This document shows positions 2,773-22,848 of a stretch of DNA of 64,000 bases, in pieces. Each line of letters begins with the position of its first letter. Position 1 is the first letter of the stretch. The notes below the pieces were generated by a model. It was not told the DNA's origin. It did not search any database and was given only the letters and a program-made list of their open reading frames with translations. Origin of the DNA: Gammaproteobacteria bacterium (GTDB lineage Bacteria; Pseudomonadota; Gammaproteobacteria; Ga0077536); NCBI GenBank assembly GCA_016209015.1, contig JACQWY010000047.1, positions 1-64,000 on the forward strand, read 5' to 3'. The translations under genes were made by a program, and so were the position numbers.

Positions 2773-5319
2773 ATGAAACAGGCATTCTGGAAGTCCGACC
2801 GGTTCGTCGGCATCGTCATTTCCCTGGTATTCCTGGTCGCCTGGCGCATGGGTGGCGGGGTTCTCGGGAGTCTCGAACGCAACGTCTACGACTTGGGTGT
2901 CCAGATCTCGAACCGGGATCCGGAGGCTCACGCGAAGATCGCCGTCGTCGCCATCGACGACACCAGCATCCAGAACATCGGACGCTGGCCGTGGTCCCGC
3001 GAAATCCACGCGAACATGATCAAGAAGCTGGCGGCTGCCGGGGCGAAGGCCATCGGCTCCACGGTGCTCTACTCGGAGCCCTCGGTGGACCCGGGTCTGA
3101 AGTATATCGATCGCATCGGCACGACGTTGAAAGACGCGAAGCTGGATGCGCAGGTCGGCGGCGAACTGCAGAAAATCATCCAGGAAGCGAAGGCAACGCT
3201 CGATACCGACGCCATCCTCGCGGACGCGATGAAGCAGGGTTCGAAGACCGTGCTCGGCATGCAGTTCACGGAGGGCTCCCCGCTGGGCAATCCCGATGCG
3301 CCGCTGCCCGATTACGTGCAGCGCTTCGTGATCCCGAAAGAGAAGATCATCGCCGATCCCTCGGGTAACGGTCCTGAAGTCCTGTCGACGAGCAAGGTCG
3401 ATCCGCCAATTCCGGCGCTCGGCCAGCAGGCCGCCGGCATCGGCCATTTGATCAATCCGCTCGACGTCGACGGCGGCGTGCGCTTCGAGCCGCTCGTCAT
3501 CCGCTACTACGACAGCTATTTCCCCTCGCTCTCCCTGATGATCGCCGCGCGCAGCCTCAACGTCGGCGTCGACGATATCAAAGTGAATCTCGGTGACAGC
3601 GTCGAGCTGAAGGGTCTGAAGATCAAGACCGACGCCGGCTCGAACATGAACACCTACTTCTACGGCAAACGCAAAGGCGATCGCCCGCCGTTCGACGTCT
3701 ATTCGTTCTACGATGTTCTGCAGGACACGATCCCGGCCGACAACTTCAAGGATCGCATCGTATTGCTCGGCGCGACGGCGTTCGGGGTGGGCACGAGCAT
3801 GCACACGCCGGTAGGCAACGCCGGAGGACCGGTACTCGTACTCGCCCACACCGTAGCGAGCATCCTGAACCAGGATTTCTTCGTGCAGCCGGGCTGGGCG
3901 CCTTTCGCCGAGTTTCTCGTATTCCTGCTCGTTGCCGGCTATCTCGTCGGCGTACTGCCGAAACTCCGTGCGGGCGCCGGCGCGATCATCAGCGCCTCCA
4001 CGCTCATCATCCTGATTGCGATCGAACTCATCCTGATGAAGTCGCAGGCGATGTGGCTGCAACTCGTCACCGCTGCGGCCCTGCTCGCCGTGGGCCACGT
4101 GCTTCTGACCACGAAACGTTTCCTCGTCACCGAGGCCAGCAAGCTGCGGCTCGACGTCGATTCCGCGACGAGCAACAAGCAACTCGCGCTGCAATTCCAG
4201 CAGCAGGGCCAGCTCGACATGGCTTTCGATTACTTCCGCAAATGCCCGGTCGACGAATCGCTGCTGGAAGCGGTCTACGGCCTCGCCGCGGATTTCGAAG
4301 CGAAGCGGAAATTCAACAAGGCGGCGGCCGTCTACCAGTACATCGCCGAGAAGAATCCGACCTTCCGCGACATCAAGGACAAGGTCAATCGCGCGAAGCA
4401 GCTCGAGGAGACGGTGCTACTCGGCGGCGCCGGGCCAAAGGCCGGTGCGACGATGCTTCTGGACGGCAGCATCTCGAAGCCCATGCTCGGACGTTACGAG
4501 GTCGAAAAGGAACTCGGCAAGGGGGCGATGGGCATCGTGTATCTCGGCAAGGATCCGAAGATCAACCGTGTGGTGGCCATCAAGACGATGGCGCTCTCCC
4601 AGGAGTTCGAAGCCGACGAGCTCGATGAGGTGAAGGCCCGGTTCTTCCGCGAGGCGGAGACCGCAGGCCGCCTGGTCCATCCGAATATCGTGACGATCTA
4701 TGACGCGGGCGAAGAACACGATCTCGCCTACATCGCGATGGAGTTCCTCGAGGGCCACGATCTCGTCCGCTACACGAAGCCGGATACCCTGCTTCCGCTC
4801 CCCATCACCATGGGCATCGTGTTCAAGGCCGCGATGGCGCTCGATTACGCCCACAAGCAGAACGTGGTCCACCGCGACATCAAGCCGGCGAACATCATGT
4901 ACGAGCCGAACAAGAAGGCCGTGAAGCTGACGGACTTCGGCATCGCGCGCATCACGGACTCGAGCAGGACCAAGACCGGCATGGTGCTGGGCACCCCGTC
5001 GTACATGTCGCCCGAGCAGCTGTCGGGCAAGAAAGTCGACGGCAGGTCCGATCTCTTCTCCCTCGGGGTGATGCTCTACCAGATGGTGACCGGTAAGCTG
5101 CCGTTCGTCGGCGAGTCCATGGCTACGCTGATGTACAAGATCGCAAACGAGCCGCACATGGACATTGGCCAGATCCGCCCCGAGCTCGCTAAGCAGAAGC
5201 CCTGCCTATCAGCGATCATCGACAAGGCGCTCCAAAAGGACGTCACGCTGCGCTACCAGACCGGCGCCGACCTGGCGCGCGACATCCAAGCGTGCGCCAA
5301 GCAGGTCGCCGCGAAGTAG
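2773..5319 (+). CDS. CHASE2 sensor Ser/Thr protein kinase
   Basis: The 848-residue protein has an N-terminal membrane anchor (about 9-27), an extracytoplasmic CHASE2 sensor domain (about 35-365) and three membrane helices (about 376-396, 403-422, 428-445). A helical, TPR-like linker (about 460-540) leads to a Hanks-type kinase domain from residue 573. Motifs are complete: glycine loop GKGAMG, the lysine in VAIK, HRDIKPAN (H700-R701-D702), DFG (721-723) and MSPEQ. An external or envelope signal probably sets phosphorylation of cytoplasmic Ser/Thr targets. The next gene, 6 bp on, is a PP2C phosphatase, followed by an FHA protein: the usual writer, eraser and reader set. The ligand of CHASE2 is unknown. 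Confidence 0.93.
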   Translation: MKQAFWKSDRFVGIVISLVFLVAWRMGGGVLGSLERNVYDLGVQISNRDPEAHAKIAVVAIDDTSIQNIGRWPWSREIHANMIKKLAAAGAKAIGSTVLYSEPSVDPGLKYIDRIGTTLKDAKLDAQVGGELQKIIQEAKATLDTDAILADAMKQGSKTVLGMQFTEGSPLGNPDAPLPDYVQRFVIPKEKIIADPSGNGPEVLSTSKVDPPIPALGQQAAGIGHLINPLDVDGGVRFEPLVIRYYDSYFPSLSLMIAARSLNVGVDDIKVNLGDSVELKGLKIKTDAGSNMNTYFYGKRKGDRPPFDVYSFYDVLQDTIPADNFKDRIVLLGATAFGVGTSMHTPVGNAGGPVLVLAHTVASILNQDFFVQPGWAPFAEFLVFLLVAGYLVGVLPKLRAGAGAIISASTLIILIAIELILMKSQAMWLQLVTAAALLAVGHVLLTTKRFLVTEASKLRLDVDSATSNKQLALQFQQQGQLDMAFDYFRKCPVDESLLEAVYGLAADFEAKRKFNKAAAVYQYIAEKNPTFRDIKDKVNRAKQLEETVLLGGAGPKAGATMLLDGSISKPMLGRYEVEKELGKGAMGIVYLGKDPKINRVVAIKTMALSQEFEADELDEVKARFFREAETAGRLVHPNIVTIYDAGEEHDLAYIAMEFLEGHDLVRYTKPDTLLPLPITMGIVFKAAMALDYAHKQNVVHRDIKPANIMYEPNKKAVKLTDFGIARITDSSRTKTGMVLGTPSYMSPEQLSGKKVDGRSDLFSLGVMLYQMVTGKLPFVGESMATLMYKIANEPHMDIGQIRPELAKQKPCLSAIIDKALQKDVTLRYQTGADLARDIQACAKQVAAK

Positions 5320-6989: not shown

Positions 6990-9236
6990 TCATTTCGACG
7001 TGTGCGTGAAGACGCCGTCCCAATCCTTGTTGGGCGGCTGATGCCGGAAATGGGCCACGCGCTCCACGTAGACCTTGTAGAGCCCGGGTGATCGCGAGGA
7101 GCGCGCGAGATTGAGGAAATTCATCTCCGCCATGTCCCACTCCTGCGCCCGGTACATGCGTAGTGCCTCTCTATAGAGCTTGAGCTCATCCTTCCAGCGC
7201 GCATCCAGATCATCCCTGGCGCAGAGCGGTTCGTAGATCGTGATTGGCTTGTCCTTGCCTTTGACGCGGACGCGATCGATTTCCCGATAGGCGTATTCAG
7301 GCACGGCTTCTTTCGTCGTCTCGCTCACGATGAGCGACACGCTGTAGCCCTTCGTGAGGCCCTCGAGCCGCGACCCCAGGTTCACGGCGTCGCCGAGCAC
7401 CGTATAGGCCATGCGGAACTCCGAACCCATGTTGCCGACACTCATCACACCACTATTGATGCCGACGCCGATTCGGATCTCCGGCCAGCCCTTGGCGACG
7501 AAGGCCTTGTTGATCTCCGCGACCTTCGAGAGCATTTCGAGTCCGGCCTGCAGCGCGTGCCGCGCATGTTCGCCATCCTCGAGCGGCGCACCCCAGAACG
7601 CCATGATGGCATCACCCATGTACTTGTCGATCGTGCCTCTGCGCTCGTGGATTACCCGCGTCATCGGCGTGAGGAACTCGTTCATGAGATCCGCGAGGTC
7701 CTTCGGATTGAGACCTTCGGATATCGTGGTGAAGCCGCGGACGTCGGAGAACAGCACCGTCATTTCGCGGCTCTCTGCCTCGAGGGAGTAGGCGTCCGGC
7801 CGTTTCGCCATTTCGTCGACGAGTTCCGGCGGAACATAGTGCCCGAAGAGCCCGGTGAGCTGCCGTTTGCCGCGCGTCTCCACGAAATAGCCGTACGACA
7901 TGTTCAACAAGAACATCGTGAGCAGCATGAGCACACCGGATGCAATCGGCAGCACGAAATTGCCGAATGACCACACGACGAGATTGAAGCCGACCATCAC
8001 CACGAGCAGGCCGACGGTGAGCGCGGTGGCGAGCAGCGGGCTCAGCGCGGGCGTCACGAGCAGCATCACGAGGCCGAAAAGGAGCAGCAACAGCACCTCT
8101 GCACCGAGCGTGTACTCCGGTAGCTGCTTGACGGCGTGATCGATGATGCCGGCAATCAGATTGGCATGAATCTCGACACCCGGGTACGCCTCGTCGACCG
8201 GCGTCGCGCGCAGATCGAGCAGACCCGGTGCCGTCGTGCCAACCAGCACGATGGCGTGCTCGAGGAGCTTCGAATCGGCCGCCCCGCGCAGGATGTCGGT
8301 CGCCGAGACATACGGGAAGCTGCCCCTGCGGCCGCGGTAGGGCACGAGTGATTGCACGTGCTTGTCGACCGGCAGCTCGTACTTGCCGATCTGCAGCCAC
8401 TCGAGCCCCGGATAGCCCTTCCCGCCGAACAGCGGCTCCTCGAACTTCGGCACGATTTCCGTGATCCCGAGCGCCTGTCGGACGATTTCGAGCGAAAGCG
8501 ACGCGTAATAGGCGCCGTCGTACTCGATGAGCATGGGCACGCGCCGGACCACGCCGTCCGGATCCGGCAGCGGATTGAAATGGCCGGCGCTCAACGCGCT
8601 CCCCTGCAGTTGCGCCAGGTTCGCGCCGAAGCCGTCCGCGCGCCTGAACTCGACGTTCTTGCCGGTGAACGTTCCTTTGACGAACGTGGGTTTCGGCAAG
8701 GTTCCGATTTTCGCCGTCTGCTCTTCCCCGCCGCCAAAGTTGAAGTAATAGCCGAGGATGACCGGATACTTCTGAATCGCCGCGCCGAACAGGCCATCGA
8801 AATCGAGCTTCGGCCGGACGGTCTGCAGGTGTGACTTGAAGCCCGGATCTTCCTTGAAGTCGGTCTCGGAGAGGTTCTCGAGCACTTTCAGACCGGAGCT
8901 CGTATCCGGCTCCGCGAACACGACGTCGAAGCCGACGAGTCCGGCGTGATACTTCGCGAAAAGCTGCTCGACGAGGTTCGCGAGCTTGTCGCGCCCCCAC
9001 GGCCAGCGCCCCTCGGCGGTGAGGCTCTTCTCGTCGATGTCGACGATCACGATGCGATCGTCGCGCTTGTTCGGCATCGTCAGGAGCAGGCGCGTGTCGT
9101 AGGACCAGTTCTCCATCTGGTCGATGAGGCCGATGCGCATCCACTGTGCGGCATGGGCGATGAACACGAGCAGTACGACGCCACCGAGCGCGATGCGCAC
9201 CCAGTGCTCCGAGACGCGGGTCCAGAACGAGCCCAT
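6990..9236 (-). CDS. CHASE2 domain class III adenylate/guanylate cyclase
   Basis: The 748-residue protein has an N-terminal membrane helix (about 14-31), a CHASE2 sensor (about 45-345), further membrane helices (about 370-445) and a class III cyclase domain (about 487-680). Both metal aspartates are visible: D498 in FSDVRGF and D542 in KYMGDAI. The purine-specifying lysine in IDKYMGD and the Thr in YTVLGD point to ATP rather than GTP. The transition-state Asn and Arg appear in VNLGSRLEG. It is therefore probably an active adenylate cyclase. It may feed cAMP to the CRP-type sites and the cNMP-binding protein elsewhere in this window (inference). It lies at the end of the metG-mla train. Confidence 0.92.
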   Translation of the reverse strand: MGSFWTRVSEHWVRIALGGVVLLVFIAHAAQWMRIGLIDQMENWSYDTRLLLTMPNKRDDRIVIVDIDEKSLTAEGRWPWGRDKLANLVEQLFAKYHAGLVGFDVVFAEPDTSSGLKVLENLSETDFKEDPGFKSHLQTVRPKLDFDGLFGAAIQKYPVILGYYFNFGGGEEQTAKIGTLPKPTFVKGTFTGKNVEFRRADGFGANLAQLQGSALSAGHFNPLPDPDGVVRRVPMLIEYDGAYYASLSLEIVRQALGITEIVPKFEEPLFGGKGYPGLEWLQIGKYELPVDKHVQSLVPYRGRRGSFPYVSATDILRGAADSKLLEHAIVLVGTTAPGLLDLRATPVDEAYPGVEIHANLIAGIIDHAVKQLPEYTLGAEVLLLLLFGLVMLLVTPALSPLLATALTVGLLVVMVGFNLVVWSFGNFVLPIASGVLMLLTMFLLNMSYGYFVETRGKRQLTGLFGHYVPPELVDEMAKRPDAYSLEAESREMTVLFSDVRGFTTISEGLNPKDLADLMNEFLTPMTRVIHERRGTIDKYMGDAIMAFWGAPLEDGEHARHALQAGLEMLSKVAEINKAFVAKGWPEIRIGVGINSGVMSVGNMGSEFRMAYTVLGDAVNLGSRLEGLTKGYSVSLIVSETTKEAVPEYAYREIDRVRVKGKDKPITIYEPLCARDDLDARWKDELKLYREALRMYRAQEWDMAEMNFLNLARSSRSPGLYKVYVERVAHFRHQPPNKDWDGVFTHTSK

Positions 9237-20981: not shown

Positions 20982-21674
20982 TTGAGAATCGCTCTGCTCG
21001 AAGACGACCAGGACCAGGCCGCGTTGTTCACGGAGTGGCTCAAAGCGGCCGGACATACGTGCGAACACTTCAAGTCCGGCAAGGCCTTCATCCACAACAT
21101 CAAGCGCGACAGCTACGACGCACTGATCCTCGACTGGATGGTCCCGGACATGGACGGCTACGAAGTGCTGGGCTGGGTCCGCGAGAATTTCGATTGGCCG
21201 ATTCCGGTCGTGTTCGTGACCGCGCGCGACGAAGAAGATGACATCGTGCGCGCGCTCGAGCAAGGGGCCGACGACTACATCGTCAAGCCCGCTAAGCAGC
21301 GCGAGCTCGCTGCCCGCATCGCGGCCGTCGTCAGGCGGGTCGCGCCCGTCGAGGACGGACAGAACCTCATCGATTTCGATCCCTTCCACATCGATCTCGC
21401 GAACCACGAGGTCAAGCGCGACGGCCAGCGGATCGACGTGACGCAGAAGGAGTACGAGCTCATCGTCTTCCTGTTCAGGAACATCGGCCGGGTGCTGTCG
21501 CGCGCGCACATTCTCGAAAGCGTGTGGGGCCGTAACCCGGACATCAATACGCGGACCGTGGACACCCACGTCAGCCGCATCCGCACGAAGCTCGGCCTCG
21601 CGCCGGAAATGGGCTGGAAGCTGAGCTCGATCTATCAGCACGGCTATCGGCTGGAGCGTCTCAGCGCCACCTGA
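20982..21674 (+). CDS. OmpR/PhoB-family response regulator
   Basis: The start is a TTG at 20982, preceded 8 nt upstream by a strong AGGAG, and gives LRIALLEDDQDQAAL directly. The upstream in-frame extension to 20853 is not protein-like. The 230 residues have a receiver domain (acidic EDD, phospho-acceptor Asp in LILDWMVPDMDG, Lys in VKPAK) and a winged-helix DNA-binding domain (about 130-228). No histidine kinase is adjacent, so the partner is encoded elsewhere. TTG starts are rare in this window and suggest low expression. Confidence 0.93.
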   Translation: MRIALLEDDQDQAALFTEWLKAAGHTCEHFKSGKAFIHNIKRDSYDALILDWMVPDMDGYEVLGWVRENFDWPIPVVFVTARDEEDDIVRALEQGADDYIVKPAKQRELAARIAAVVRRVAPVEDGQNLIDFDPFHIDLANHEVKRDGQRIDVTQKEYELIVFLFRNIGRVLSRAHILESVWGRNPDINTRTVDTHVSRIRTKLGLAPEMGWKLSSIYQHGYRLERLSAT

Positions 21675-21716: not shown

Positions 21717-21774
21717 AAAAAAAACTCGGGGTTGCTCGCTTGGGGGAGGGAGGGGGGGAGAGCAACCACCGAGT
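21717..21774 (-). terminator. Strong intrinsic terminator, leftward, with C-rich loop
   Basis: Read on the - strand, ACTCGG and GGTTGCTC (one bulged base at 21768) pair with GAGCAACC and CCGAGT, a 14-bp stem. It is followed at once by seven T residues (21717-21723). The 22-nt loop is almost all C on this strand. On the + strand the loop has four or more G-runs of three or more (21742-21758), so G-quadruplex formation in the DNA is possible. Confidence 0.85.
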
Positions 21775-21811
21775 CCATCAAGCGCATCGTTGAGAGGCGA
21801 CGTGTAATGGT
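21717..21811 (-). ncRNA. Predicted CRP-controlled small RNA with C-rich (anti-Shine-Dalgarno) loop
   Basis: The convergent gap between the response regulator and the ROK kinase should need no promoter. Yet it has two perfect CRP-type palindromes, a TACACT hexamer at 21818-21823 and the leftward terminator at 21717-21774. If transcription starts at A21811, the nearer CRP site is centred at -41.5 and the hexamer lies exactly at -12 to -7, the class II arrangement. The RNA would be about 95 nt: a mostly single-stranded 5' part and a terminator hairpin. Its loop of C-runs could pair with GGGAGG-like ribosome binding sites. C-rich loop sRNAs such as Xanthomonas sX13 act this way (established for that RNA, homology not tested). 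An alternative is that the hairpin only ends ROK transcripts. Confidence 0.6.
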
Positions 21812-21818
21812 GCTCGAA

Positions 21819-21836
21819 GTGTAGTTGCTGCTACAC
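21819..21836. promoter_or_regulatory. Third palindrome GTGTAG-N6-CTACAC overlapping the sRNA -10
   Basis: A perfect 6-6-6 inverted repeat has the same 5-6-5 geometry as the CRP sites but a different core (TGTAG/CTACA). It covers the proposed -10, a position suited to a repressor. The binding protein is unknown. Confidence 0.45.
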
Positions 21837-21844
21837 ACGTCGGT

Positions 21845-21860
21845 TGTGATTGCGTTCACA
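21845..21860. promoter_or_regulatory. Perfect CRP-type site, proximal
   Basis: TGTGATTGCGTTCACA is a full TGTGA-N6-TCACA palindrome. Its centre (21852.5) is 41.5 bp from the proposed sRNA start. It matches the E. coli CRP and Xanthomonas Clp consensus arms exactly. Confidence 0.75.
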
Positions 21861-21883
21861 CCACCCCGAGCGCCAGAGAGGCG

Positions 21884-21899
21884 TGTGATCGCGATCACA
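21884..21899. promoter_or_regulatory. Perfect CRP-type site, distal
   Basis: TGTGATCGCGATCACA is a second exact TGTGA-N6-TCACA site, and its spacer is itself palindromic. It is centred 39 bp from the proximal site, at about -80.5 of the proposed sRNA. Confidence 0.75.
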
Positions 21900-21918: not shown

Positions 21919-22848
21919 TCAGCAGGACGCGAGCGAAGCGGGCTCACCGCTCGCATTCCACAGCCATGCCGCACCCCGCACGCCGCTGCTGTCGCCGTGC
22001 CGTGCAGGATGGATTTCCGTCACGAGATGGTCGGAAAACGCGTATTCCCGCAGCAGCCTGGGCACGTCGCGATAGAGCGCCCCGATGTTCGAGAGCCCGC
22101 CACCGAGCACGATGACCGCCGGGTCGATCACGTTGACCACGTTCGCGAGGCCGCGTGCGAGTTGATCGGCATAGCGCCCCAGGGCCTCTTCGGCCAGGGC
22201 TTCGGCGGCAGCGGCACGTGCCGCGACCTCACTGGCGTCACACCCGGTGCCCCCGATATCCCGATAAGTACGGACGAGGCCCGCGCCGGAGAGGAAGGTT
22301 TCCAGGCAACCCGACTTGCCGCAATAGCAGGGACGGCCCGCGAGTTCGTCGGCCGCTGGCCACGGCAGAGGATTGTGTCCCCACTCGCCGCCGATGGCAT
22401 TCGCCCCCCGCAATACCCGGCCGCCGACGACGATACCCCCGCCGGTCCCCGTGCCGATTATCACGCCGAAAACGGGGTCCGCCCCCGCCGCCGCACCGTC
22501 ACGCGCCTCGGACAGGGCGAAGCAGTTCGCGTCGTTTTCGACGATGACGGGGCGGGCGAGTTCGGCGGCGAGATCCCCGGCGAATGGTTTCCCGATGAGG
22601 ACCGTCGTATTTGCGTTCTTCACGCCGCCGGTCAGTGTCGAGATGGCGCCCGGCATGCCGATGCCAACGGGACAGGCCATGCCGGCTTCCGCGTCGAGCG
22701 TGGCGACCAGCCCGGCCACGGTGTCGACGATTGCCGCGTAGTCCCTGGCAGGCGTCGGGACCCGGTGTCGCGCGAGCTCCCTGCCACGGGCGTCGATGAG
22801 TATGCCCTCGGTCTTCGTGCCGCCGAGGTCGATGCCTATGCGTTTCAC
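21919..22848 (-). CDS. ROK-family sugar kinase (fructokinase / N-acetylglucosamine kinase type)
   Basis: The GTG at 22848 follows a TAGGGA element and gives 309 residues starting VKRIGIDLGGTKTEG, the phosphate-1 motif of ROK kinases. The zinc motif CYCGKSGCLE, the catalytic region ENDANCFALSEA, GTGTGGGIV and GGEWGHNPL are present. The enzyme phosphorylates a hexose or amino sugar with ATP. The exact substrate cannot be read from sequence. The in-frame extension to 22977 is not protein-like and overlaps the ispG promoter area. It is divergent to ispG and its 3' end faces the CRP-controlled sRNA region. Confidence 0.9.
   Translation of the reverse strand: MKRIGIDLGGTKTEGILIDARGRELARHRVPTPARDYAAIVDTVAGLVATLDAEAGMACPVGIGMPGAISTLTGGVKNANTTVLIGKPFAGDLAAELARPVIVENDANCFALSEARDGAAAGADPVFGVIIGTGTGGGIVVGGRVLRGANAIGGEWGHNPLPWPAADELAGRPCYCGKSGCLETFLSGAGLVRTYRDIGGTGCDASEVAARAAAAEALAEEALGRYADQLARGLANVVNVIDPAVIVLGGGLSNIGALYRDVPRLLREYAFSDHLVTEIHPARHGDSSGVRGAAWLWNASGEPASLASC

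Follow-up and report, generated by a model that had tools for sequence, protein, structure and literature searches.

The 244-bp gap between two convergent genes in a 64,000-nt stretch of gammaproteobacterial DNA (contig JACQWY010000047.1, positions 1 to 64,000; hereafter the window) very likely holds an autonomous gene for a small RNA, which cAMP-CRP would activate at a class II promoter and which would act in trans by pairing its C-rich loops with Shine-Dalgarno (SD) sequences. We assign this reading a probability of roughly 0.82. The gene itself, the geometry of its promoter, its structure and its fixed C-rich loops rest on sequence and on comparison among homologues; transcription, activation by CRP, the need for Hfq, pairing with SD sequences, the targets and the sign of regulation are all inferred.

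The convergent gap

Two 3' ends bound the gap: that of a response-regulator gene, at 21674, and that of a ROK-kinase gene, at 21919 (Table 1). This convergence, described in the first-pass annotation of the window, is confirmed by Pfam. The exact palindrome TGTGAN6TCACA occurs at four sites in the whole 5.7-Mb genome, and two of them lie inside the 244-bp gap; a CCCYCCC run followed within 10-38 nt by seven T is found at only two places genome-wide. The architecture of the gap is far above chance.

The nearest CRP protein of this genome shares about 60% identity with that of E. coli; its recognition helix reads CSREMVGR, as against CSRETVGR. Because the recognition helix is kept, TGTGA half-sites are the expected target. 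The genome also encodes hfq, and the predicted small RNA has a U-tail; dependence on Hfq is an inference. The CHASE2 cyclase that had been reported in the window is real, and a second CHASE2 protein is encoded close to it. A further exact CRP site, at G000 C39:21936-21951 (L173), lies 23 nt ahead of a TATAGT hexamer, within a long leader that precedes an open frame, and is possibly part of a second CRP promoter.

Table 1. Positions of the small RNA gene, its promoter elements and the genes discussed, numbered from the first letter of the window.
Feature	Position	Strand	Remark
CHASE2 Ser/Thr protein kinase	2773-5319	+	second CHASE2 protein, close to the cyclase
CHASE2 adenylate/guanylate cyclase	6990-9236	-	
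OmpR-type response regulator gene	20982-21674	+	convergent flank; Pfam-confirmed
Predicted small RNA, about 95 nt	21717-21811	-	full-length covariance model matches: 7 genomes of the order, as well as other families of the class
Terminator hairpin	21724-21774, then U8 at 21717-21724	-	outer 6 bp and inner 8 bp, one bulged base
Terminator loop UCCCCCCCUCCCUCCCCCAAGC	21738-21759	-	22 nt, C-rich
First hairpin, stem CGUCG / CGAUG, loop CCUCUCAA	21785-21802	-	predicted fold; smaller of the two hairpins
-10 box TACACT	21818-21823	-	most homologues have TAGACT / TANACT
Spacer between CRP site and -10 box	21824-21844	-	21 nt; length conserved, sequence variable
Proximal CRP site TGTGAACGCAATCACA	21845-21860	-	exact palindrome; centre 21852.5, that is, -41.5 from 21811 (class II)
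Upstream CRP site TGTGATCGCGATCACA	21884-21899	-	perfect palindrome at about -80.5; its centre lies 39 bp further upstream than that of the proximal site
ROK-family sugar kinase gene	21919-22845	-	small RNA lies downstream on the same strand; Pfam-confirmed

A predicted class II CRP promoter with a fixed spacing

The two exact CRP palindromes and the TACACT hexamer stand where the first-pass annotation had placed them, and the nearer palindrome has the claimed distance from position 21811. The start of transcription is inferred to lie at 21811-21815. With the start placed at 21811, the window satisfies the class II geometry: CRP, at about -41.5, takes the place of the -35 box, and the -10 box comes next. 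No -35 box is recognisable in the promoter of the small RNA. Its absence, together with a 22-nt loop that exceeds the length allowed, explains why a simple scan for promoters and terminators found nothing here.

The spacing between the CRP site and the -10 box can be compared across 38 loci. By script, 30 of them have a CRP site, with no more than one mismatch, whose end lies exactly 21 nt ahead of the -10 box; when the -10 boxes of three loci are re-registered by eye (TAATAT in L176, TAGTAT in L206 and TAGAAT in L208), the count rises to 33/38. This regularity is seen although the CRP sites had been left out of the covariance model. The background density of CRP sites in the same loci, at the same mismatch limit, is 5.1e-4 per position, which would give about 0.02 chance sites at one set offset across the 38 loci. 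The loci are related and not independent, yet the 21-nt spacing is seen in each of five families.

A second CRP site lies upstream in about 20 of the 38 loci, at a centre-to-centre distance of 32, 39-43 or 49-51 bp. These distances cluster near whole helical turns; in the window, as in L177, the distance is 39 bp. Helically phased tandem CRP sites are the layout expected for activation from one face of the DNA. Control by CRP is not universal, however: L194 (f67), a homologue in the same convergent gap between response regulator and ROK kinase, is without a CRP site, and in L178 and L200 (genus g259) the site is displaced 18 bp further upstream, to 39 nt before the -10 box and near a class I position, the RNA being otherwise intact.

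Structure of the RNA and conservation of its loops

The first-pass annotation described a 14-bp hairpin followed by a run of T. The hairpin is indeed there, as 8 + 6 bp interrupted by one bulged base, and the run is a U8 tail whose first U closes the stem. The smaller hairpin at the other end of the RNA had been overlooked. Folding of a 97-nt RNA gives -32.8 kcal/mol, compared with -18.05 +/- 2.85 in dinucleotide shuffles (z = -5.2). The loop of the first hairpin reads CCUCUC in the window and is of the CCUCC type in most homologues; 23 of the 38 homologues have a first stem with a C-rich loop, where shuffles would lead one to expect 2.65.

Covariation of the terminator stem in relatives, which had been proposed as a check, is found. 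Across 38 distinct sequences, 94.3% of the stem cells are paired, and 12 of the 13 pairs carry compensatory changes, that is, have changed on both sides. Double-changed stem cells number 109, compared with 28 in shuffles, and the covariation score is 0.637, whereas shuffles score 0.255 and slid controls never exceed 0.14. The 38-sequence alignment was fitted to the structure under test and is biased towards it; alignments of seven and of thirteen sequences agreed.

While the arms of the terminator stem vary, its loop is conserved, with CCUCC in 34/38 members and CCCCC in 35/38. CCUCC also occurs within the 5' part of the RNA in 28 of the 38, and CCUCCUUA, which resembles the 3' end of 16S rRNA, is present in four 5' regions. 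A loop that stays fixed while its stem covaries freely is what marks a pairing seed, here an accessible one that is complementary to SD sequences. A G-quadruplex function of the + strand was also considered and dropped: the homologues keep the stem and the CCUCC loop, not a regular pattern of four G-runs.

Homologues within and beyond the order

The gap diverges fast, and covariance models are therefore needed to follow the RNA; a plain nucleotide similarity search returned only one real homologue, together with two apparent chance matches, one within coding sequence (L003) and one of 25 matched bases (L004). We built the models R1 (five sequences) and R2 (seven sequences), which both cover the -10 box and the RNA, and R3 (13 sequences). 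R2 and R3 were grown iteratively from previous matches, and their weakest matches are uncertain.

Of the 36 genomes searched in the window's order, R1 found the RNA in 7, and R2 recovered exactly those seven. The RNA is thus present in three of the ten genera of this order; in the other seven, some of which have CRP, it was not found, nor was it found in LNEL01000012.1 (MAG Ga0077536), of the same family. With the response regulator as anchor, the RNA was located in the same gap between response regulator and ROK kinase in G005, G013 and G020, which belong to one other genus, and in G016; in G009 it adjoins the response regulator. Each of these five loci (JAIEQK010000018.1, JADLGE010000083.1, CAMCBY010000418.1, JAJFJQ010000025.1 and JAQCEL010000068.1) has a CRP site, the 21-nt spacing and a TANACT box. 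Two MAG records titled Klebsiella pneumoniae (L030 and L033; CAMATU010000009.1 and CAMCBY010000418.1) carry genes of this environmental family, and their titles appear to be wrong.

The homologues conserve the whole design that the first-pass annotation had proposed, namely a class II CRP promoter, a leftward RNA of about 95 nt, a C-rich loop and an intrinsic terminator, although transcription remains inferred. The same annotation held that its reading would be refuted if the gap were not conserved in relatives that keep the flanking genes, and on this point the reading stands where the gap between response regulator and ROK kinase is kept, in g6 and g10. The RNA is not universal: there is none at this site in g4 and g9, where ispG follows the response regulator, or in g8, where the ROK gene is directly adjacent.

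Beyond the order, a search of 369 genomes, a sample of the class, with R2 showed that families f12, f133 and f140 also have members with this promoter; f119 yielded one member, whose CRP site is displaced. R3 added L192 and matched 24 of the 53 genomes of f119's order; it gave no match in eleven named genomes, E. coli not being among them.

Gene contexts

The neighbours of the RNA, several of which were identified by eye, differ from family to family. Response regulator and ROK kinase flank it in f1 and in L194 (f67). Its neighbours are ispG and a pterin dehydratase gene (phhB) near cysG in f133, and msrB, a pterin dehydratase gene and cysG in f12. A Na+/H+ antiporter gene lies next to it in f140 and in much of f119, and a ketoacyl synthase gene in part of f119. 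Given such varied contexts, we conclude that the RNA is a gene of its own and not the terminator of a neighbour. The surroundings in f1, f12 and f133 have cysG, msrB or ispG in common, which suggests that these loci derive from one ancestral position.

Proposed function and alternative explanations

We propose that cAMP-CRP occupies the site at -41.5, helped by a second site at about -80.5, and that it would recruit RNA polymerase in the class II manner to a promoter that has a -10 box and no recognisable -35 box. Transcription would then run leftwards for about 95 nt and stop at the intrinsic terminator, and the RNA is predicted to fold into two hairpins whose C-rich loops are complementary to SD sequences (GGAGG, GGGGGAGG). 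Most likely, the RNA would pair in trans with G-rich ribosome-binding sites and so repress the translation of a set of messengers, probably with the help of Hfq. Repression would be expected when cAMP is high, that is, when the carbon supply is poor. C-rich seeds give many chance target matches in a G+C-rich genome.

Since the hairpin lies about 145 nt past the stop codon of the ROK gene, on the same strand, it would terminate ROK transcripts, and one could suppose that it is merely the terminator of that gene. It would then be a 3'-UTR element, the short RNA a by-product, and the CRP sites would serve some other use, such as a roadblock. We consider this very unlikely: in other families the RNA and its promoter stand beside unrelated genes in different orientations, the 21-nt distance from the CRP site to the -10 box stays constant while the neighbours change, and a conserved CCUCC-rich loop is unnecessary for termination. 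The unrelated neighbours and the other orientations also weigh against action in cis as an antisense RNA that covers the convergent response-regulator messenger at its 3' end. The genes do face each other, with only about 43 nt between the end of the RNA and the stop codon of the response regulator, but what is conserved is the loop and not any match to the neighbour. We find this explanation barely credible.

The C-rich loops might instead bind a protein or some other G-rich RNA, and not the ribosome-binding sites of messengers, in which case the RNA would be a CRP-controlled decoy or sponge. Any exposed G-rich RNA can pair with such loops, and the loop in g6, where the C-runs are interrupted by AA, is an imperfect anti-SD sequence. 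We nonetheless think a decoy or sponge improbable, in view of the CCUCC in the loops of most members, the sequence like the 16S rRNA 3' end in four 5' regions, and the fact that RNAs of the same design, CyaR and sX13, target messenger RNAs (PMC11795201, PMC3771888).

Comparison with known RNAs

Searches against Rfam, at gathering and at relaxed thresholds, gave nothing reliable for the CRP-type members, and no family reached its cut-off. The RNA closest to it in proposed mode of action is CyaR (RyeE) of Enterobacteriaceae, which is CRP-activated, Hfq-dependent and about 87 nt long, with a conserved seed and terminator loop (PMC11795201). CyaR has two C-rich anti-SD segments, the CACCUCCUUA seed (CACCUCC) and a UCUCCC terminator loop, and the new RNA also has two C-rich loops; in cyaR of E. 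coli K-12 (L198), as counted by eye, 21 nt likewise separate a TCACA half-site from the -10 hexamer, TATCAT. In the new RNA the C-runs are longer, the CRP palindrome is much stronger and a second CRP site is often present; it also differs in position: CyaR lies downstream of trhP (yegQ), whereas the window RNA is flanked by the response regulator and the ROK kinase. The Rfam CyaR model (RF00112) gives E. coli cyaR 100.7 bits in a positive control, yet at E up to 5-10 it matches neither the window nor any of the 39 homologous or related loci scanned; conversely, R3 gives E. coli cyaR only 2.9 bits. The new RNA can therefore not be classified as CyaR, although its inferred mode of action is CyaR-like.

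The sX13 RNA of Xanthomonas (RF02232) represses messengers with G-rich motifs near their start codons by means of stable hairpins with C-rich loops (PMC3771888). Unlike the new RNA, it has three stems; it acts without Hfq, and CRP/Clp is not mentioned in PMC3771888; the sX13 model has no significant match among the CRP-type members. C-rich CCUCC loops before the terminator are likewise found in ErsA / Pseudomon-1 (RF01719), the alphaproteobacterial ar14 (RF02344) and the Burkholderia anti-hemB RNA (RF02837). The models of these three gave sub-threshold matches only, the best being 43.7 bits with anti-hemB (cut-off 49.5), for L190. This locus (G099 C130:39968-40060) encodes a multi-hairpin C-rich RNA without a CRP promoter, has weak ErsA, ar14 and sX13 matches too, and is a possible link between the anti-hemB, ErsA, ar14 and sX13 families.

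In a word-based search of the literature, with partial coverage, we found no comparable sRNA under CRP control in bacteria other than enterics. Spot 42 is another CRP-controlled sRNA. Direct control by CRP, as proposed for the new RNA and sometimes with more than one CRP site, is a feature of Spot 42 and of Yersinia sRNAs; no match in Rfam sequence or structure joins such RNAs to the new one. In Yersinia, many sRNAs are under direct CRP control (PMC4376681).

Implications

CRP-activated sRNAs are best known in enteric bacteria and their close relatives. Here an RNA family that is absent from Rfam keeps one promoter geometry in five bacterial families, which suggests that the coupling of carbon status to translation by way of an anti-SD RNA is far older and wider than has been described. 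A more far-reaching view, which we regard as possible but doubtful, is that tandem phased CRP sites and a double anti-SD RNA form an ancient module of the whole gammaproteobacterial class, of which the enterobacterial CyaR is a diverged descendant. If this were true, translational control by cAMP-CRP through an anti-SD RNA would be older than the enteric bacteria. The 38 loci, with promoter, structure and loop aligned, provide a test set.

Further C-rich RNAs

Ten loci with C-rich loops and without a CRP site at the conserved spacing (L179, L182, L180, L186, L184, L185, L190, L193, L195 and L196) were left out of the family count, and L187, L188 and L189 were rejected as apparent chance matches. 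In two of the loci left out, L179 (1501-1608) and L182 (1501-1605) of family f65, the RNA follows a promoter of the TTGAC/TAAAAT type that is overlapped by a palindrome, AATATTA...TTAATATT; these are possibly RNAs of the same kind under a different regulator. A second C-rich RNA candidate in the window's own genome (L131; G000 C39, 164635-164734, - strand) has hairpin loops around GCCCCCCCAUU and CACCCUCCCCCCCCACGU, followed by T8; its neighbours, as identified by eye, are PAP2-like and azoreductase-like genes, and no CRP site was seen there. At L207 the RNA gene is duplicated in tandem (1501-1604 and 1728-1831), with a promoter-like region for each copy, the CRP site of the second copy being the weaker.
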